23,422 nt of DNA. Source: a virus. The position numbers and the translations under genes were made by a program. Each line of letters begins with the position of its first letter. Within the stretch, counting starts at the first letter, position 1. Shown here piece by piece: positions 80 to 8,017 of the stretch. The DNA lies in IMG/VR virus record IMGVR_UViG_3300030617_000051, positions 1-23,422 of that record; one strand, written 5' to 3'. The notes beneath the pieces are model-generated. The model did not search any database, was not told the origin of the DNA, and saw only the letters and a list, made by a program, of their open reading frames with translations.

Positions 80-2907
80 CTTTCGTTCACCTGCACAATC
101 ACACTCAATACAGCATGCTTGATGGAGCGTCCCGACTCGGGGCGCTCTTTTCATCTGCTGCCGAGATGGGCATGCCAGCCATCGCCATGACCGACCATGG
201 CAACGTGCACGGCGCCTACGATTTCTGGGAGACGGGCCAGAAGCACGGCATCAAGCCGATCATCGGCATGGAAGCCTATGTGGCGCCAGGATCCCGATTT
301 GATCGAGCACCGGTCCGATGGGGATCGGGTGGTAAGGATGATGTCTCAGGCCGTGGCGCATACACTCATATGACGCTGTACGCGTCTAGCAATGAGGGTC
401 TGCACAATCTCTTCAGGCTGTCGTCCAAAAGCTTCTCAGAGGGCATCTACTACAAGCCTCGGATCGATCTGGAGCTGTTGGCTGAGTACTCGGCCGGCAT
501 CATCGGTACGACTGGCTGCCCATCAGGTGCCGTGCAGACACGCCTTCGTCTCGGGGATCCTGATGCCGCAGCGATGCACGCGGCGGAACTGAGTGACATC
601 CTCGGGGTCGGCAATCTGTATGTTGAGCTGATGGATCACGGGCTAGAGATTGAGAGCCGTGTCAGAAACGGACTGCTGACTGTTGCCAGTCGTCTTCAGC
701 TTCCACTGCTGGCAACGAACGATAGCCACTTCGTCAAGTCTGAAGACGCTGCCGCTCACGATCTCCTTCTGTGCATCGGCACTCAGTCAACGCTAGATGC
801 CGAGGATCGATTTCGGTTCAACGGCGAAGGCTACTACCTTCGCTCGCCGGCCGAGATGCGTCATCTGTTTCGCGAACTGCCGGAAGCATGCGACAACACG
901 TTGACGTTGGCAGAGCGATGCAACGTCACCTTTGAGTCGCAGGATCTCACGCCAGTCTTTCCTGTTCCTGAGGGATGGACGGAAGAGCTGTACTTCAGGA
1001 CGGAGGTCTATCGCGGTCTTCAAGTTCGGTATCCGCGCGGGATCCCGCGCGACAGGATCGACAGGGCGGAGTACGAGCTTGGCGTCATTGGCAAGATGGG
1101 TTTTGCGTCCTACTTCCTGGTTGTTGCTGATCTCATCCGATTTGCTAAATCGCGCGGGATTCGCGTTGGCCCAGGTCGCGGATCGGCTGCCGGATCTCTA
1201 GTCTCGTATGCTCTGGGCATTACGGACTTGGATCCGATCGTTCATGGACTCCTCTTTGAGCGCTTCCTGAATCCTGAGCGCGTCTCCATGCCCGATGTGG
1301 ACATGGACTTTGATGACCGACGGAGAGGAGAAGTGATTGAATATGCCGCGCAGAGATGGGGCGGCGACCGAGTTGCCCAGATCGCCACGTTTGGTTATAT
1401 CAAGGCGAAGGCTGCGCTCAAGGACAGCGCTCGTGCACTCGGACTCGGGTATGATCTCGGCGACAGTCTCAGTAAGGCTTATCCACTTCCGATCATGGGT
1501 AAGGATGCACCGCTTGAGTGCGTTTACTCTCGCGAACATGTTCGTTATGGTGATGCTGGGAAATTCCGAAAGCTGGTTGAGACTGACGAAGATGCAAGGC
1601 GCGTCCTTGATCTCGCGTATGGAGTCGAAGGACTGATCAGGCAGCCTGGGGTTCACGCTGCCGGCGTGGTCATCAGTCGAGAGCCCCTGATCGATCACAT
1701 CCCGCTGTGGAGCCGGTCCGACGGCTCTGTTGTGACCCAATTCGACTACCCCACGTGCGAAGCACTCGGCCTGTTGAAGATGGATTTCCTCGGCTTGGCA
1801 AACCTGTCGATCATTGATGACTGCTTGAAGGAGGTGAAACGAAATCATGGTCGAGATGTTGACCTGCTGCGACTACCATTGGATGATCACGCGACTTTTG
1901 CACTGCTGTCCGCAGGACAGACGCTTGGAGTTTTCCAGCTTGACTCAGGCCCCATGCGGAAACTTCTTCAGCGTATGCGCCCAACTCAATTTGCGGACAT
2001 CAGCGCTGTCCTTGCTCTCTACCGTCCTGGACCAATGGGTGTCAAAGCGCACTACGCGTACGCGGATCGGAAGAACGGAAGAGAGCCAATTGACCCCCTT
2101 CACCCTGAGCTGAGCAACGCTCTCGATCCGATCCTGTCGCCAACCTATGGCGTCATCGTGTATCAGGAACAAGTCATTGCTGCGGCGCAAGCCGTGGCCG
2201 GCTACTCAGTGGGTCATGCTGACCTTCTCCGGAAGGCCATGGGCAAGAAGAACAAGGAAGTCCTTGACAAGGAGTTCATCCCGTTCTCTGATGGGATGAG
2301 ATCCAATGGATACTCGGAAGACGCGATCAGCGTCCTGTGGGAAACCTTGGTCCCTTTCGCCGACTACGCATTCAACAAGGCGCACGCATCGGCGTATGGG
2401 CTCATCAGCTACTGGACTGCCTACTTGAAAACGCACTATCCGGCCGAGTACATGGCTGCGGTGCTGACTGGTGAGATTGGTAAGGCTCCCGATAAGGACA
2501 GTACGTCTCTGTATCTGTCTGAGTGCCGGCGCATGGGCATCGAAGTCAGGACACCGGACGTCAACGGATCAAACGCCACCTATACGCCGACGCCTGAAGG
2601 CGTCATCCTGCACGGCCTTGGGGCCGTGAAGGGTGTGGGAGTGGCTGGAGATCTGATTACGGCAGAGCGGGACGCGTGGGGCCCGTATCGGTCCCTTCCT
2701 GATCTGCTTGCCAGGGTAGGGACTGGAGTCATGAACAAGCGCGTAGTTGAGGCCTTGGTTGCCGCTGGCGCCCTTGACGGTTTGGGCACACGATCTTCAC
2801 TTCTGGAGCAGTACGAAGCCGTCGGTGACGTCATCGGTGACATCGCGAAGCGGGAGAAATACGGACAGAAGACTCTGTTCGGCTCAGGACTTGTGTTGCT
2901 GACGTGA
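76..2907 (+). CDS. dnaE: DNA polymerase III alpha subunit (DnaE-like), C-terminally short
   Basis: Replicative family C DNA polymerase of 943 residues. The N-terminal PHP domain starts with HLHNHTQYSM (residues 5-14) and includes TDHGNVHG. The polymerase core carries GPGRGSAAGS, the catalytic PDVDMDF motif (D407 and D409, matching E. coli D401/D403) and KMDFLGL with D570 (matching D555). FNKAH (766-770) and a helix-hairpin-helix stretch (about 846-855) follow. The chain stops soon after the HhH region, whereas cellular DnaE proteins of about 1160-1180 residues continue into an OB fold and tau-binding domain. It therefore probably does not bind the host clamp loader in the usual way. The ATG overlaps the stop of the previous gene, so the two are likely coupled. 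Family assignment is secure; independence from the host clamp loader is inference. R4-like Streptomyces phages are known to carry DnaE-type polymerases. Confidence 0.96.
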   Translation: MTFVHLHNHTQYSMLDGASRLGALFSSAAEMGMPAIAMTDHGNVHGAYDFWETGQKHGIKPIIGMEAYVAPGSRFDRAPVRWGSGGKDDVSGRGAYTHMTLYASSNEGLHNLFRLSSKSFSEGIYYKPRIDLELLAEYSAGIIGTTGCPSGAVQTRLRLGDPDAAAMHAAELSDILGVGNLYVELMDHGLEIESRVRNGLLTVASRLQLPLLATNDSHFVKSEDAAAHDLLLCIGTQSTLDAEDRFRFNGEGYYLRSPAEMRHLFRELPEACDNTLTLAERCNVTFESQDLTPVFPVPEGWTEELYFRTEVYRGLQVRYPRGIPRDRIDRAEYELGVIGKMGFASYFLVVADLIRFAKSRGIRVGPGRGSAAGSLVSYALGITDLDPIVHGLLFERFLNPERVSMPDVDMDFDDRRRGEVIEYAAQRWGGDRVAQIATFGYIKAKAALKDSARALGLGYDLGDSLSKAYPLPIMGKDAPLECVYSREHVRYGDAGKFRKLVETDEDARRVLDLAYGVEGLIRQPGVHAAGVVISREPLIDHIPLWSRSDGSVVTQFDYPTCEALGLLKMDFLGLANLSIIDDCLKEVKRNHGRDVDLLRLPLDDHATFALLSAGQTLGVFQLDSGPMRKLLQRMRPTQFADISAVLALYRPGPMGVKAHYAYADRKNGREPIDPLHPELSNALDPILSPTYGVIVYQEQVIAAAQAVAGYSVGHADLLRKAMGKKNKEVLDKEFIPFSDGMRSNGYSEDAISVLWETLVPFADYAFNKAHASAYGLISYWTAYLKTHYPAEYMAAVLTGEIGKAPDKDSTSLYLSECRRMGIEVRTPDVNGSNATYTPTPEGVILHGLGAVKGVGVAGDLITAERDAWGPYRSLPDLLARVGTGVMNKRVVEALVAAGALDGLGTRSSLLEQYEAVGDVIGDIAKREKYGQKTLFGSGLVLLT

Positions 2908-2910
2908 AAC

Positions 2911-2946
2911 TTGACGCTTGACACCCGCTGCTGGCGGGTGCAGGAT
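2911..2946 (+). promoter_or_regulatory. Stoperator-like 13-mer with hairpin and -10-like hexamer
   Basis: TTGACGCTTGACA (2911-2923) begins four bases after the polymerase stop codon. The 7-bp perfect stem CACCCGC/GCGGGTG (2922-2940, loop TGCTG) starts within it. CAGGAT (2941-2946) lies 17 bp after the second TTGACA and could be a weak -10. This is either a promoter with a palindromic spacer or a repressor site coupled to a terminator-like hairpin. Confidence 0.55.
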
Positions 2947-2953
2947 CTTCACA

Positions 2954-2973
2954 TCAGAACCGATCAGAACCGA
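2954..2973 (+). repeat. Tandem 10-bp direct repeat
   Basis: TCAGAACCGA occurs twice back to back in the gap after the polymerase gene, between the regulatory element and the terminator. No function is evident. Confidence 0.6.
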
Positions 2974-2989
2974 TCGGCGAATGACATCG

Positions 2990-3026
2990 ATGGGCGCTCA
3001 TCCTCGACCCGTGGGCGCCCATTTTC
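2990..3026 (+). terminator. Probable rho-independent terminator after the polymerase gene
   Basis: ATGGGCGC (2990-2997) pairs perfectly with GCGCCCAT (3015-3022) across a 17-nt loop and is followed by a short T run (TTTTC). It lies in the longest gap of this part of the early arm, so it plausibly ends the upstream transcript. Confidence 0.55.
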
Positions 3027-3038
3027 AACCGCAGTTAC

Positions 3039-3051
3039 TTGACGCTTGACA
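3039..3051 (+). promoter_or_regulatory. Stoperator-like 13-mer abutting a Shine-Dalgarno
   Basis: An exact TTGACGCTTGACA copy. Its last A is the first base of the AGGAG Shine-Dalgarno (3051-3055) of the gene starting at 3062. A promoter using this TTGACA as -35 would start transcription inside that gene, so a repressor-binding role fits better than a promoter for it. Confidence 0.6.
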
Positions 3052-3061
3052 GGAGTCACGA

Positions 3062-3205
3062 GTGAGCGAGAACAGCAAGACGACCATCCGGAAGTTTCGT
3101 CGCCAGGACGAGACGAAGGTGTCCCGCAAGGACATGGAGAAGTACCGGACCACTCAGCGCCGGCTGGCACGGCGGATCAAGGCGCTCACCAACTCGACCA
3201 TCTGA
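3062..3205 (+). CDS. Small basic protein (47 aa)
   Basis: GTG start seven bases after the strong Shine-Dalgarno AGGAG, ending at TGA 3203-3205. The 47-residue product is highly charged and Lys/Arg-rich (MSENSKTTIRKFRRQ at the N-terminus, RRLARRIKALTNSTI at the end) and is probably mostly helical. It looks like the small basic proteins often found in actinophage early arms, but I recognise no family. A longer reading in another frame covers the same bases; the ribosome-binding site and the clean join to the next gene favour this frame. A nucleic-acid-binding role is only suggested by its charge. Confidence 0.6.
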   Translation: MSENSKTTIRKFRRQDETKVSRKDMEKYRTTQRRLARRIKALTNSTI

Positions 3206-3219
3206 AAGGCATTCGGATC

Positions 3220-3456
3220 ATGGTCATCACCATCGAAGACATCATCAAGCGGATCAAGCGATTCAAGGGTTACGAGATGTATGAGAAGGCCATTTTCTGG
3301 CTCCAGATGACCTTCCAGATGGAAGGGCCCCGTGCGGCTATGGCGCATGCGCGCCGTATTGAAGCTGCCTACAAGGCGCTTCGCAGTGACCGAATCGCGA
3401 AGCGCGAGGAATTCCTCCGTAACGACGCCACGCGTCGTGGACTGGTGATCGCATGA
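3220..3456 (+). CDS. Hypothetical early protein (78 aa), helical
   Basis: ATG at 3220 is preceded by GAAAGG about ten bases upstream. The frame is open further 5' but those residues belong to the overlapping 47-aa gene, so the short start is preferred. The product (MVITIEDIIKRIKRF...) is rich in charged and aromatic residues with predicted helices, including EMYEKAIFWLQMTFQM and ARRIEAAYKALR. No catalytic motif is visible and I do not recognise the family. Its stop overlaps the next start as ATGA. Confidence 0.65.
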   Translation: MVITIEDIIKRIKRFKGYEMYEKAIFWLQMTFQMEGPRAAMAHARRIEAAYKALRSDRIAKREEFLRNDATRRGLVIA

Positions 3457-3536
3457 GCGATGACCGTCCCGTGGACTACGAAGACGAAGATTTCGATTAT
3501 GGAGATGACGATGGTCGGTTCGATTGCGCTGACTGA
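3453..3536 (+). CDS. Tiny acidic ORF (27 aa)
   Basis: ATG overlaps the previous stop (ATGA) and the frame closes at TGA 3534-3536. The 27-residue product is strikingly acidic: 12 Asp/Glu, including runs such as YEDEDFDYGDDD. It overlaps the 5' end of the ParB-like gene, whose Shine-Dalgarno and start lie inside it. It may be a real micropeptide or a coupling ORF that carries ribosomes to the next start. Only the overlap pattern and composition support it. Confidence 0.4.
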   Translation: MSDDRPVDYEDEDFDYGDDDGRFDCAD

Positions 3537-3912
3537 AGTCCTCGCACTCGGATCTACCGATGCGCCGTCCTATAGTCGATGCCCCGCCTGTAAGGTCGTC
3601 TACAACGACGATTGCGAATCCTGCGGCTGCCCGAACGGCGTTTCTTGGAATGATGCCGAGATCGTTAGGAACGTTCGGGAGACGCTTTCAAAGAAGCGTC
3701 GCGATGGAGAGTACCCCGATTTGTTGGATTCGATCCGACTGCATGGTATCTCCCGTCCAATCCTGATCAAAAATGGAATTGTCTGCAATGGCCACCATCG
3801 CATAGCAGCAGCGCAAGACCTGGGAATCTCTGAGATTCCATACACTGATGACCCCGAGATCGGATGGGAGGATGACTGGCCCGATGGGCAGATTCCAGAT
3901 TCCTGGGCCTGA
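3511..3912 (+). CDS. ParB/Srx-like domain protein with Cys cluster
   Basis: About 133 residues from ATG 3511, which has GGAG six bases upstream; earlier in-frame ATGs at 3460, 3499 and 3505 lack a comparable site. The N-terminal part holds the cysteine-rich, zinc-ribbon-like run CPACKVVYNDDCESCGCP. The C-terminal half has the ParB N-terminal-like core: RLHGISRPILIKNGIVCNGH followed by HRIAAAQDLGISEIPY, with the typical G-H-H-R loop. Members of this fold act as DNA-binding partition proteins, nucleases or CTPases; in phage early regions many are uncharacterised. It has no ParA partner here, so partition is unlikely. The end overlaps the next gene by 29 bases. Confidence 0.72.
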   Translation: MVGSIALTEVLALGSTDAPSYSRCPACKVVYNDDCESCGCPNGVSWNDAEIVRNVRETLSKKRRDGEYPDLLDSIRLHGISRPILIKNGIVCNGHHRIAAAQDLGISEIPYTDDPEIGWEDDWPDGQIPDSWA

Positions 3913-4504
3913 ACTAGCGAGGCTGACGCATAACGCTCTTGCGTTCATGCCGGCGCGTAGCGCGGTCAAGGTCTGCCGAGTCCACCAGAATATCGGCAGC
4001 CTCAGCATCATGGCGACCGATATTTATAGCCTAGGCTACGATTCGGCAAGCGTAGAAACTGAGAACGATACGGCACAGATCGACCTGTGTCGTGCCGATC
4101 TGGTGGAACTGGACAAGATCGCACGGGCCCGCAAGAAGGACGCAGTCGAGATCGATATCCGTCACCAGGATGGACTGTCAATCCTAGACGATAACGGCGC
4201 ATGGATGCCGATGCGCGATGCATCGGAGCAACGCAATCCTGTCGATCTCTGGGACCGCTGTTACGACCTGCTGACTCGCGAGACGCCAACGCGTCTCGTC
4301 CTGATCGATCCGAAGATGATGGCTGCCTTCGGCAAGATCAAGGCTGCTGGCGAGACCATCGCCGACCTCTCCATCTCCGACGGTGATGAGCAGATCTCCG
4401 TGAAGATCGGATCCACGTTCGTTGGCGCCATCATGCCAGTCGATCGATACACGGCAGCACAGTCCGAAGAGATCGGAGCTGAAGGGCTCTGGCCATCAAT
4501 TTAG
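3884..4504 (+). CDS. Probable DNA polymerase III sliding-clamp-like protein
   Basis: 206 residues from ATG 3884 (MGRFQIPGPELARL); a GGGAGG lies 12 bases upstream, slightly far. The pattern resembles the divergent clamp-like proteins of actinophages: an N-terminal helix (ELARLTHNALAFM), then SLSIMATDIYSLGYDSASVE, matching the 'atDrYrLg' strand of beta-clamp domains, and a C-terminal stretch DGDEQISVKIGSTFVGAIMP typical of the final clamp strands. Cellular beta clamps are about 370 residues with three domains, so this would be a shortened form. Proximity to the phage DnaE supports a processivity role. Homology is judged by eye; structure prediction would settle it. Confidence 0.6.
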   Translation: MGRFQIPGPELARLTHNALAFMPARSAVKVCRVHQNIGSLSIMATDIYSLGYDSASVETENDTAQIDLCRADLVELDKIARARKKDAVEIDIRHQDGLSILDDNGAWMPMRDASEQRNPVDLWDRCYDLLTRETPTRLVLIDPKMMAAFGKIKAAGETIADLSISDGDEQISVKIGSTFVGAIMPVDRYTAAQSEEIGAEGLWPSI

Positions 4505-4512
4505 GCAATTTC

Positions 4513-4525
4513 TTGACGCTTGGCA
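4513..4525 (+). promoter_or_regulatory. Stoperator-like 13-mer variant abutting a Shine-Dalgarno
   Basis: TTGACGCTTGGCA differs from the common form at one position. It fills most of the 31-bp gap between two genes and runs straight into AGGAGG (4525-4530), the ribosome-binding site of the gene at 4536. There is no room for a -10 and start site before that gene. Confidence 0.55.
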
Positions 4526-4535
4526 GGAGGATGGC

Positions 4536-4904
4536 GTGTTGGTGTATCGGGTAGCAACAGCAGAAAGGATGCCCTACGGCGTTCCTGGGGGCCCGTACAA
4601 CGGGCCGGAAACCGATGAATGGCAAAAAGACATGGCGTGGGCGCACAGCAACCGGGATCATCCAAATCCATATGACGATGGCGGTCTGCACGGAATTCTG
4701 GATGACGAATTCTGTGCCTTCGCATCCATGGAACTGCTGACGTCCTGGTTCAAGGACTGGCTGGACAAGCTCCATGAAGCCGGCTACCTGAAGCACGTCT
4801 ACGACGTGCCAGACGAACATGTTCGATTCGGAGAGAAGCAGGTAGTAGCCAAGCTCAAGCTTGGCGCTCTCGTCCGGACAGAACCGATCCTGGTTGCGGC
4901 ATGA
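4536..4904 (+). CDS. Conserved phage hypothetical protein (122 aa)
   Basis: GTG start five bases after a perfect AGGAGG. The frame is open further upstream into the clamp-like gene, but this start has by far the best ribosome-binding site. The product starts MLVYRVATAERMPYGVPGGP and has HPNPYDDGG, a Trp/Phe-rich middle (LLTSWFKDWLDKLHEAGYL) and ends with a VYDVPDEHVRFGEKQVVAKL segment. This order (Tyr-Arg-Val start, GPY, acidic loop, 'F/W-S-L-E-L-x-x-W-F', C-terminal 'G-x-x-Q-V-V') resembles a widespread family of phage and prophage proteins of unknown function. No activity can be assigned. Confidence 0.75.
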   Translation: MLVYRVATAERMPYGVPGGPYNGPETDEWQKDMAWAHSNRDHPNPYDDGGLHGILDDEFCAFASMELLTSWFKDWLDKLHEAGYLKHVYDVPDEHVRFGEKQVVAKLKLGALVRTEPILVAA

Positions 4905-5002
4905 CTACGCAACGCGTGGTCTGGCGCAACCGCGAGTGGACCGATGCCGAGTGGGCCGAGTTCCTGCGACTGCTCTTCGGCCCCCGACCACCTGCCAAGT
5001 GA
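4901..5002 (+). CDS. Small Trp-rich ORF (33 aa)
   Basis: ATG overlaps the upstream stop (ATGA) and the frame closes at TGA 5000-5002. The product has three Trp in 33 residues (MTTQRVVWRNREWTDAEW...) and ends GPRPPAK. It is probably the last gene of the small operon, before the hairpin at 5058. Coupling supports translation; no family recognised. Confidence 0.5.
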   Translation: MTTQRVVWRNREWTDAEWAEFLRLLFGPRPPAK

Positions 5003-5057
5003 TCCGAGCCGTCGTCAACTGCTGCCGCCCTGCGCTACCTTGACTCCAGACGCAAAC

Positions 5058-5087
5058 GTGCGCCAGGGGTTCCAGCCCCTGGCGCAC
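5058..5087 (+). terminator. Strong hairpin upstream of the integrase gene
   Basis: GTGCGCCAGGGG and CCCCTGGCGCAC form a perfect 12-bp stem with loop TTCCAG. There is no T run, which is common for actinobacterial terminators. It separates the upstream operon from the integrase and may also overlap the phage attachment site, which in serine-integrase phages often lies just outside the integrase gene. Confidence 0.65.
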
Positions 5088-5114
5088 AGCGACCGACTGT
5101 GAAGGAGTCGAGTC

Positions 5115-7127
5115 ATGCCTAGTCTAACCATGCCCGTGGCCACTGGTGTGCTTAGGGCCGTTGACTACAATCGGGTCTCCACCGAAGAGCAGCGCAAGGG
5201 TTATGGCATTGCTGCCGGCCTGCGCAAGTCTGCCTCCTTCATCACCCGCAAGGGCTGGGACCATGTAGGCACTTACAAGGATGAGGGTCTGTCTGGATCC
5301 TTGGAGATGGGCTCCCGAGCGGACTTCGATCGTCTCATGCTCGACGCGAAGACGATCGACACCTTTGGCAGGCGTGCCTTTGATGTGGTGGTGGTACCCA
5401 AGGGCGACCGCATCGGCCGTACCGGCCGCGCCTTTTGGCGTTGGGTATGGGCACTTGAAGACATCGGTATCTTCGTTGCCCTAGTAGACAAAGACTGCGA
5501 CAATACGACTCAAGCCGGGCGTTCCGAGTTTCGCAAATCTGCGGACTATGCCGAGACCGAATGGGAAACGATCCGCTCTCGAACTCAAGACGGCCTTCAA
5601 GAGAAGGCCTATGCTGGCGGCTGGATCGGCGGCCCACCACCTTTCGGCTATGAGATCGAGAATCAGGGCAAGCGTGGTGAATCTCACCTGATCGTTTGCG
5701 ATAGGGAAGCCCTCATGGTTCGGATTGTCGTAAAGGCCCTCCAGGAAGGCGACAGTCTGAACGATGCCGCGATCATCCTCAACATGGAAGAGCAGTTCAC
5801 TCGATCGGGCAGGCCCTGGGGACGTGAGAATCTGCGTCACCAGATATTCTCTGACGCAATCCTTAACGGATACGTCATCTTTAGGAACACAGCCGTCAAT
5901 GCGAAGGCTGGTCCCGATGGCGAGCCGCTATACGGCCCATCGGTGAAGATCCCAGTCCCTCAGTTCCTGACCGATGATGAGGTTGCCTACCTGCGAGAAT
6001 GGCAGATGCGGTCACGGAAGCCCAAGCGCCGTGCTGATGCCACTTACCCTCTGTCTCTGCGCCTGATCGGCATGTGCGGCAAGCACTATAGTGGCCAGGG
6101 GCGGTCAGAATCTGGATACATTCGCGGCTATCGATGCTCCGGAAAGAATCAGTCTTATCCGGGCGCCCCTACTTGCAACGATCATAACATCGATGCCAGC
6201 ACCCTCGAAAAGGCCGTGTGGGATCTCCTCTGCACGAAGCTCGGCGATCGTGACAAGCTTGAGGAAATTTCGGCTGAATGGCTGAGCCTTGCCGGAGAAG
6301 GATTCGAGATGCACGAATCCCGGATTTCCGACCTTGAGTCGGCAATCAAGCGACAGAATTCCGTCATCAGCACGACTGTGGTGAGCCTTGCAAGGCTTGG
6401 ACAAAGTGAAGAAGAGATCGCTGTGGCCGTACGGCCACTCAATGAAGAACTTGAGCAGATCCAAAAGATGAAGGCTGATGCCGAGGCGTGGTTCAAGGAA
6501 CGGGAGGATGGCGCGCAGCGCGGGCGGGATCTTGCTGCCTTGGCGCAGATGGCGCAGGAAAGGCTTGGGGACGAGTCTCTAGAAACTCAGGCGCGCTTCC
6601 TGGACCTACTAGACGTACGCGTGCACATCCTGTCTCCTGTACCGATTCTGGCCGGCGGTCATCCCTGCACGGTGGCCGGCTGGTACGAAGAGCGGAAGCG
6701 AGGTGTCCCGATGGAGCTGACAGACGATCAGTGGGCGCGTGTGGCGCCCCTAGTGGGCTCTACAGACGCGCTGAGAAGGCGCGTCAACGCCGTACTTCAC
6801 AAGGCTCGTTCGCGCTGCCGTTGGGCCGATCTGCCGTCGGAGTACGGCTCGCCAAACACGGCGCGCCGGGCATGGACTCAATGGTCAACGGGCCTGTGGG
6901 CGCAGGTGGATCAGGTTCTTGATGATGCCGAGAGGAGTGACTTCGTGCCTACGATGCGCCCGCTGCCAGACTTTGAGCTGCGCGTAGATGTGGACCCCCG
7001 CATCTTGGTAGTCGCGGAACCATCCCGAACGGAGTGGTTTCCCCACTCGCAGGATGTGCGTCCACGGCTTCACCTGCGGATCGATCGGGAATCCGCACAG
7101 CTTCGAACAGTCCTGACTGCCGCGTGA
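5115..7127 (+). CDS. int: Large serine integrase with C-terminal DUF4096-like domain
   Basis: A 670-residue site-specific recombinase expected to join phage attP to host attB. ATG 5115 has AGGAG seven bases upstream. The catalytic domain has DYNRVSTEEQ with nucleophile S22, then the GLSGS and PKGDRIGRTGRAF motifs. A recombinase domain follows (GGPPPFGYEIE onward), then a zinc-ribbon region with C321, C341 and C354 (H324 in place of the usual fourth Cys) and a long coiled coil (about 385-500). The core would normally end near residue 520. Here a further 150 residues follow: 533-602 (LTDDQWARVAPLV... RRVNAVLHKARSRCRWADLP) match the DUF4096 domain of IS5-type transposases, followed by about 68 unrecognised residues. 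The frame is uninterrupted. An internal ATG at 6711 with a weak site (GAGG) could also express the extra domain alone. Confidence 0.95.
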   Translation: MPSLTMPVATGVLRAVDYNRVSTEEQRKGYGIAAGLRKSASFITRKGWDHVGTYKDEGLSGSLEMGSRADFDRLMLDAKTIDTFGRRAFDVVVVPKGDRIGRTGRAFWRWVWALEDIGIFVALVDKDCDNTTQAGRSEFRKSADYAETEWETIRSRTQDGLQEKAYAGGWIGGPPPFGYEIENQGKRGESHLIVCDREALMVRIVVKALQEGDSLNDAAIILNMEEQFTRSGRPWGRENLRHQIFSDAILNGYVIFRNTAVNAKAGPDGEPLYGPSVKIPVPQFLTDDEVAYLREWQMRSRKPKRRADATYPLSLRLIGMCGKHYSGQGRSESGYIRGYRCSGKNQSYPGAPTCNDHNIDASTLEKAVWDLLCTKLGDRDKLEEISAEWLSLAGEGFEMHESRISDLESAIKRQNSVISTTVVSLARLGQSEEEIAVAVRPLNEELEQIQKMKADAEAWFKEREDGAQRGRDLAALAQMAQERLGDESLETQARFLDLLDVRVHILSPVPILAGGHPCTVAGWYEERKRGVPMELTDDQWARVAPLVGSTDALRRRVNAVLHKARSRCRWADLPSEYGSPNTARRAWTQWSTGLWAQVDQVLDDAERSDFVPTMRPLPDFELRVDVDPRILVVAEPSRTEWFPHSQDVRPRLHLRIDRESAQLRTVLTAA

Positions 7128-7300: not shown

Positions 7301-7819
7301 ATGCCACGACCGAGGACACTGCCTGATGATGAAATTCTGGTGCGGGACAAAGATTTCCTGGGTCTGAGTCTCAATGAAATCGCGGACAAGTACGGCGTGA
7401 GCAAGCAGGCCGTAAGCGCGCTTTTCATTGAGATGGGTAGACCATGGGGCGCGGTAGCGCCGGTAAATTACCGGGACTATCTGCCCTGGGACATCGGTCG
7501 CGATCATCAGGCCCTTGATGCCGCACAGAGGCTCAGGGCACACATCAGGTGGAGGACAGGACACCCGTCGACAGACGCGCAGTTGCGTCGTCTGTCCAAC
7601 TGGCATGCACGCATCACACGCGAGAATGTAACAGTTGTGTACGATCCTGTCCTGCCGTCGCCGTGGATCTACGTGCCGCGCACGGCTTCTGACGGAGAGT
7701 TGATCATCCGCTGGCCGGCAGACATAGAGCCTCCGACCGACGTTCAGCGCGCTGTCCTGCTGCTACCCAGGGGCCCTGAGCTGGGCGAACGGCATGTCAG
7801 GGAGACTCTGAGTAGCTAG
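7301..7819 (+). CDS. HTH DNA-binding protein, candidate immunity repressor
   Basis: 172 residues from ATG 7301, with AAGGG about ten bases upstream. Residues 18-45 form a helix-turn-helix: LSLNEIADKYGVSKQAVSAL, with the usual Ala and Gly in the helix and turn. The rest has no recognised domain and could mediate asymmetric site recognition or dimerisation. Three points suggest the lysogeny repressor: it sits next to the integrase, it is a single gene between its own promoter and a strong terminator (7853-7882), and the repeated 13-mer overlaps its promoter. The cluster A/L5 repressor is of similar size (about 183 residues). Its role is inference; it could instead be an excision or Cro-like regulator. 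Confidence 0.75.
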   Translation: MPRPRTLPDDEILVRDKDFLGLSLNEIADKYGVSKQAVSALFIEMGRPWGAVAPVNYRDYLPWDIGRDHQALDAAQRLRAHIRWRTGHPSTDAQLRRLSNWHARITRENVTVVYDPVLPSPWIYVPRTASDGELIIRWPADIEPPTDVQRAVLLLPRGPELGERHVRETLSS

Positions 7820-7852
7820 CCTTTACAACTTCATTACACATCGTCACATGTC

Positions 7853-7887
7853 AGTGCTCGGTCCTAGAGTGGGCCGAGCACTTTCGT
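7853..7887 (+). terminator. Terminator after the HTH gene
   Basis: AGTGCTCGG (7853-7861) pairs perfectly with CCGAGCACT (7874-7882), followed by TTCGTT. It isolates the HTH gene as a monocistronic unit. Confidence 0.75.
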
Positions 7888-7899
7888 TGTAGGTTGAAC

Positions 7900-7937
7900 T
7901 TGACGCTTGACAGGCGCACAAAGTGCGCGCGTATGAT
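7900..7937 (+). promoter_or_regulatory. Probable early promoter with stoperator-like 13-mer
   Basis: TTGACGCTTGACA (7900-7912) is followed after 19 bp by TATGAT (7932-7937), the best -10 of the set. The spacer holds a perfect 6-bp inverted repeat GCGCAC-AAA-GTGCGC (7914-7928). It lies between the HTH terminator and the next gene block, so it probably starts transcription of the nuclease/ATPase operon and may be repressed through the 13-mer. Confidence 0.65.
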
Positions 7938-7963
7938 CGTCGTCACACATCAAGCGGAGCGGG

Positions 7964-8017
7964 ATGGGTCAGTTGCGTGACAGATGTGATGGAACAGCGT
8001 CAGCGGGGGGCAGTTGA
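7964..8017 (+). CDS. Possible 17-aa leader peptide
   Basis: ATG 7964 has GGAG about four bases upstream. The frame encodes MGQLRDRCDGTASAGGS and its TGA (8015-8017) overlaps the ATG of the next gene. It starts 27 bases after the -10 of the preceding promoter, the expected place for a leader ORF. Translation would couple to the next gene. Support is position and ribosome-binding site only. Confidence 0.35.
   Translation: MGQLRDRCDGTASAGGS

Follow-up and report, generated by a model that had tools for sequence, protein, structure and literature searches.

Integration of the phage studied here cuts off the C-terminal end of its own integrase, because the phage attachment site, attP, lies inside the coding region of the integrase gene. 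The window, i.e. the whole analysed stretch of 23,422 nucleotides (a 23.4-kb IMG/VR record that also encodes a phage DNA polymerase, exonuclease, helicase, endolysin and tail genes), carries the viral form of this gene, and relatives in actinomycete genomes carry the integrated form. About the anatomy, namely a DUF4096 domain inserted in the enzyme, attP within int, the replacement of the C-terminus and, in the sense, in-frame cases, the reciprocal addition of the severed tail to the host gene, there is little room for doubt. That the exchange is also a regulatory step is a tentative proposal, and the complete statement, which joins domain insertion, attP within int and a regulatory swap of the C-terminus, is the reading that we favour with moderate confidence.

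Domain layout and the DUF4096 insertion

The preliminary description of this DNA, made from the letters alone, had noted a continuous frame, and the ORF translation indeed gives a single unbroken reading frame of 670 amino acids whose product matches the integrase family phrog_95 (E=9.9e-58). The features of the gene and its neighbour are:

5115-7127, + strand: large serine integrase gene, viral (attP) form, 670 aa (ORF, Pfam, phrog_95)
5157-5624, + strand: Resolvase catalytic domain, residues 15-170, Ser22 in RVST (Pfam PF00239, alignments)
6069-6230, + strand: recombinase zinc ribbon, residues 319-372 (Pfam PF13408)
6303-6572, + strand: coiled coil, helices 397-427 and 432-486 (AlphaFold2 model)
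6711-6713, + strand: internal ATG (Met533), probably no start (not conserved in relatives)
6717-6905, + strand: DUF4096 domain (IS5 transposase N-terminal type), residues 535-597, between strands 501-505 and 620-624 (Pfam, NCBIfam, AlphaFold2)
7301-7819, + strand: neighbouring gene past attP, repressor-like (phrog_3929 transcriptional repressor, E=1.9e-13)

The Resolvase domain was found with E=1e-20 and its catalytic serine is invariant across the 45 sequences aligned. The zinc ribbon scored above the Pfam cut-off, and the Recombinase profile (PF07508) gave E=0.023 for the window integrase versus 8.6e-9 for its relative L003. With the catalytic domain, the zinc ribbon, the coiled coil and simple attP x attB sites, the protein is a large serine integrase. 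The repressor-like gene is located directly past attP; after integration it and int stand at opposite ends of the prophage.

The DUF4096 domain had been placed at residues 533-602, which is correct to within a few residues. The profile PF13340 matches residues 535-597 (E=1.3e-11, 45-48 bits against a gathering cut-off of 34.3), and the NCBIfam model of IS5-family transposases, NF033580, matches the same stretch with E=1.9e-12, a score under its full-length cut-off, as expected because only a single domain is present. No DDE transposase domain was matched in the window integrase by Pfam or NCBIfam. The AlphaFold2 model has four helices here (537-547, 551-566, 580-590 and 594-601) with pLDDT of about 85-93. 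When public collections were scanned with the integrase, 39 actinomycete loci, mainly of Streptomyces and Kitasatospora, and several viral contigs were retrieved. The added-domain order proposed for the window is real, with DUF4096 occupying this place in about 40 relatives, found in actinomycete genomes, on viral contigs and in isolated Streptomyces phages, and in nearly all intact copies it sits between a strand ending ..LLDVRVTITGPVP and a strand reading ..LPPxxIEGRVDPR. A search for relatives that end near residue 530 and have the remainder in a different frame or as a separate gene found none. Of 295 genomes drawn from one actinomycete order, roughly 28 (a manual count) encode the domain in a long ORF of integrase type. 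In L046 (5935-8831) the integrase frame enters an IS5-type transposase-like sequence in the zinc-ribbon and coiled-coil region, probably an IS insertion.

One relative, L054, 41% identical, lacks the domain; its first strand runs straight into the second and both flanks are kept, which indicates that DUF4096 is a modular insertion in the C-terminal domain. Most likely the domain provides additional contacts with att-site DNA. It had been suggested that it alters site choice or acts as a built-in directionality element, and would then be the key innovation of the family. In favour of that proposal, IS5-type transposases have DUF4096 as their N-terminal domain, and it has been kept in relatives with many different attB target genes; however, L054 retains, besides both flanks, a similar attP-like tail sequence, and no link between the domain and direction was found, so that we consider this proposal unlikely. 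A built-in directionality element could still be provided by another feature of the same region, namely attP within int and the exchange of the tail. A dependence of the location of attP on DUF4096 was also considered and is unsupported, given the attP-like tail of L054. The 68 residues after the domain, previously unrecognised, resolve into a linker, the strand 620-624, the stretch encoded by attP and a terminal tail.

A separate small protein started at the ATG at 6711 had also been proposed, which could act as a directionality factor. The codon is preceded by a weak GAGG 7 nt upstream. On the other side, a methionine occupies this column in 0 of 38 aligned relatives, and fusion to host genes in the prophages would alter such a product each time. 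Since the ATG is not conserved, a product from it is highly improbable.

The attachment site within the integrase gene

Two IMG/VR contigs, L001 and L005, represent the integrated form of the phage in the window. L001 is identical to window positions 2115-7029 (4,915 nt) and then continues into host DNA, and L005 begins in host DNA and from 7025 on matches the window without a difference. Their host flanks are the two halves of one rarD gene (the host part of L005 matches the RarD model TIGR00688 starting at the junction, E=4.4e-27), which when joined read ..FINPLVTIAFGVLVYREKLRP. As both junctions share the core 7025-7029, attP must lie inside the integrase gene, with the crossover at codon 638 of 670. 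The features of this region are:

7004-7053, + strand: attP, approximate 50 bp, within the integrase coding region (inverted symmetry centred at 7028/7029)
7025-7029, + strand: crossover core CCGAA, common to attP, both prophage junctions and attB (host rarD, antisense)
7029-7124, + strand: viral-form C-terminal tail, residues 639-670, ending VLTAA; severed by integration, with RRWSPVG instead
7074-7085, + strand: predicted terminal strand, residues 654-657, counterpart of the conserved IRFRL-type strand in relatives (AlphaFold2 model, tails of relatives)

The centre at 7028/7029 is the best one in the surrounding 71 bases, with 15 of 24 symmetric pairs, a value equalled by 2% of shuffles. The viral integrase ends ..AEPSR-TEWFPHSQDVRPRLHLRIDRESAQLRTVLTAA and that of the prophage ..AEPSR-RRWSPVG, i.e. 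on integration into rarD the last 32 residues are exchanged for 7 encoded by the host, and the prophage form in L001 has 645 aa.

Junctions at other target genes and the exchanged tail

The same arrangement was found at other host genes, and for dprA, pnkp, a VOC gene and yccF the reciprocal junctions could be rebuilt at both ends. In dprA, an element of 10-12 kb is present in three Streptomyces genomes and in a viral contig (L051/G027) with both ends seen; on the int side the integrase continues in frame into the C-terminal part of DprA, and at the other end the N-terminal part of DprA continues in frame into the missing integrase tail (..ALAPIRFRLDHAA or ..ALAPIRFRVAIAA). Lysogens with the dprA element include S. 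goshikiensis and S. microflavus. The exchange is likewise reciprocal and in frame in the polynucleotide kinase-phosphatase gene pnkp (G005 and G012, tail ..IIPFRIMVAA) and in the glyoxalase/VOC gene (G016, tail ..VIKFSLDVAA), and reciprocal and antisense in yccF (G007, G015, G021 and also G017, tail ..ALRFRLDA). Only int-side junctions were seen for the remaining targets: in frame in an acyl-CoA synthetase and a cytochrome P450, in sense and out of frame in a dihydropyrimidinase (L144), an alpha/beta hydrolase (L145) and an ABC-2 transporter (L151), and antisense in DUF4191, MFS and RecQ-like genes. The names RarD, PNKP, acyl-CoA synthetase, P450 and YccF are profile matches, and the remaining ones come from reading the translations.

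Several of these elements have peculiarities of their own. Those in dprA (L018, L019 and L020, in G009-G011) and in pnkp have only about 10-12 kb, below the typical size of a tailed phage genome, and could represent phage satellites or elements of the AICE type that employ the same integrase family. In L038 (around 7800-8004) the dprA element is inverted relative to the others and lies close to their site (GVPRP), which suggests a near-palindromic core or relaxed orientation. In the yccF-type elements of G021 (C19, about 73.7-76.6 kb) and G015 (C1, near 4,494,000) the other end is located about 1-1.7 kb upstream of int; they seem to hold little but the integrase and may be decayed. The integrase tail of L157 (G009:C10), ..GQIRFETTIGLIGNGTCALLEASL, resembles the P450 junction of L156 and ends early, possibly as a decayed P450 fusion.

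The residues acquired by the prophage integrase range from 7-9 in rarD and yccF to hundreds in dprA or pnkp, and the severed tail is found at the other end of the prophage; if the insertion is in sense and in frame, it there forms the new end of the interrupted host gene. Selection for in-frame fusion to the host gene was rejected: five of the nine sense cases are in frame versus three of nine expected, which is not significant. Out-of-frame sense cases number four, counting dprA in L141 together with the three targets listed above, and many further cases are antisense. In-frame fusion being not universal, the replacement sequence itself seems unimportant. The constant feature across targets is the severing of the integrase's own tail by integration.

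Some of this might reflect assembly chimaeras or decayed elements, as the window's own junctions come from metagenome contigs (L001 and L005) and some relatives are broken (L041 and L046). Against this, the rarD pieces of those two contigs are complementary halves of a single gene and share the 5-nt core, and the insertions in dprA, pnkp, VOC and yccF of isolate genomes show the same layout at both ends; an artefact of this kind is extremely improbable.

The main rival to a regulatory swap is a neutral overlap: attP would happen to lie in a 3' part of int that the enzyme can spare, the tail would regulate nothing, and the two forms of the integrase would work alike. The replacement, from 7 to over 600 residues and often out of frame or antisense, gives the impression that loss of the tail is tolerated, and the linker encoded by attP, which precedes the terminal strand, is predicted to be disordered (pLDDT below 50 in the models of the window integrase and of L052). 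However, past the attP half-site the tail is under constraint at the protein level. The pN/pS of the tail codons was 0.35-0.37 in the dprA, pnkp and yccF groups, i.e. mostly synonymous change, in small samples. A strand of the pattern hydrophobic-polar-Phe-polar-hydrophobic recurs near the end across groups with different attP sequences (IRFRL, PFRIMV, LRFRL, IKFSL and IRFQM), and it falls mostly outside a typical 50-bp attP because it is encoded roughly 30-50 bp past the crossover. Its predicted confidence is modest, about 49 in the model of the window integrase and pLDDT of about 70 in L052 (366-372 of the modelled part). A search of phages with the tail only gave nothing useful, and a regular-expression screen for it gave some chance hits that were dropped. 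On balance we regard the neutral overlap as rather improbable and a functional tail as the preferred reading.

The end of this tail might itself carry a signal. An Ala-Ala end occurs in seven of the ten viral-form lineages and in 13 of 463 host-like ORFs from these regions, a count that is suggestive and not a test because the viral-form lineages are related and the sample is not independent. Among the prophage-form ORFs inspected none has this end, and the AA is also missing from the tails in L003, the yccF group and the Arquatrovirinae. Judging from the residues, the Ala-Ala end of the viral form resembles an ssrA-type degradation signal.

Proposed mechanism and comparison with known systems

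These features could be combined as follows. The helical DUF4096 domain, in a loop of the C-terminal domain, would add DNA contacts, and attP is placed in the codons of a linker, predicted to be disordered, between this module and the conserved terminal strand. Recombination at attP cuts off the last ~32 codons of int and joins the remainder to host DNA. The viral form, with the terminal strand and often an AA end, may be a short-lived complete integrase for attP x attB. Once integrated, only tail-less or host-fused integrase would be made, with altered stability, activity or direction, and this form may help to lock in lysogeny or prepare the enzyme for RDF-dependent excision. It is conceivable, and we put it forward with reserve, that this family of actinobacterial serine integrases edits its own C-terminus by its own recombination, with directionality partly built into the architecture of the gene.

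Serine integrases are major tools of genome engineering, and how their direction is controlled is still being worked out. An integrase family whose C-terminus is rewritten by its own integration provides a natural test of C-terminal control. The integrase-DprA, integrase-PNKP and integrase-P450 fusion ORFs found in Streptomyces genomes are integration junctions and not evolved fusions. A location within int also explains how attP can be missed, for example in a survey of Streptomyces phages that sought it in the intergenic DNA flanking the integrase (PMC10276819). A large survey of att sites describes DUF4368 in multi-targeting recombinases and finds competence genes enriched among the targets; its passages on these subjects showed no mention of attP inside a recombinase gene (PMC10083194). 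Nor did searches of open-access papers yield a description of DUF4096 with a serine integrase or of attP inside a serine integrase gene, which is weak evidence of novelty.

The best structural matches of the window integrase were the Bxb1, SPbeta and phiC31 integrases. It has the catalytic domain, zinc ribbon and coiled coil in common with the large serine integrases (phiC31, Bxb1, SPbeta YokA/SprA and the Listeria integrase 4KIS) and differs from them in the DUF4096 within the C-terminal domain and in the attP inside the ORF. In precedent attP is located upstream or downstream of the serine integrase gene (PMC4068962); this position beside int, usual and not defining, is not the one found in the window. 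The departure from known large serine integrases is thus one of gene architecture and not of family membership. Integrases of a similar layout are encoded by the isolated Streptomyces phages phiHau3, Haizum, Sentinel and Triumph (Arquatrovirinae); these integrases have about 670 aa, the same domain order and the terminal strand, but are only 24-28% identical and match DUF4096 weakly, below the Pfam cut-off. With IS5-family transposases (NF033580) only the DUF4096 domain is shared; in the window it is embedded in an integrase and no DDE domain accompanies it. In archaeal SSV-type integrases, which are tyrosine recombinases, attP is also inside the integrase gene, but there integration splits the gene into two large pieces, whereas in the window integrase only the tail is exchanged. 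Direction can be controlled by an RDF fused to the integrase (PMC5737554). In mycobacteriophage BPs attP lies inside the repressor gene, the prophage product is 33 residues shorter and stable, and the viral product is degraded via an ssrA-like tag (PMC4557955). The window integrase resembles that system in having attP in an ORF whose C-terminus is changed by integration, with 32 residues lost. In BPs, however, it is the repressor that is affected and its degradation was shown experimentally, while here it is a serine integrase with a putative degron, fusions to host genes are formed as well, and the repressor-like gene is separate from the attP-bearing int.
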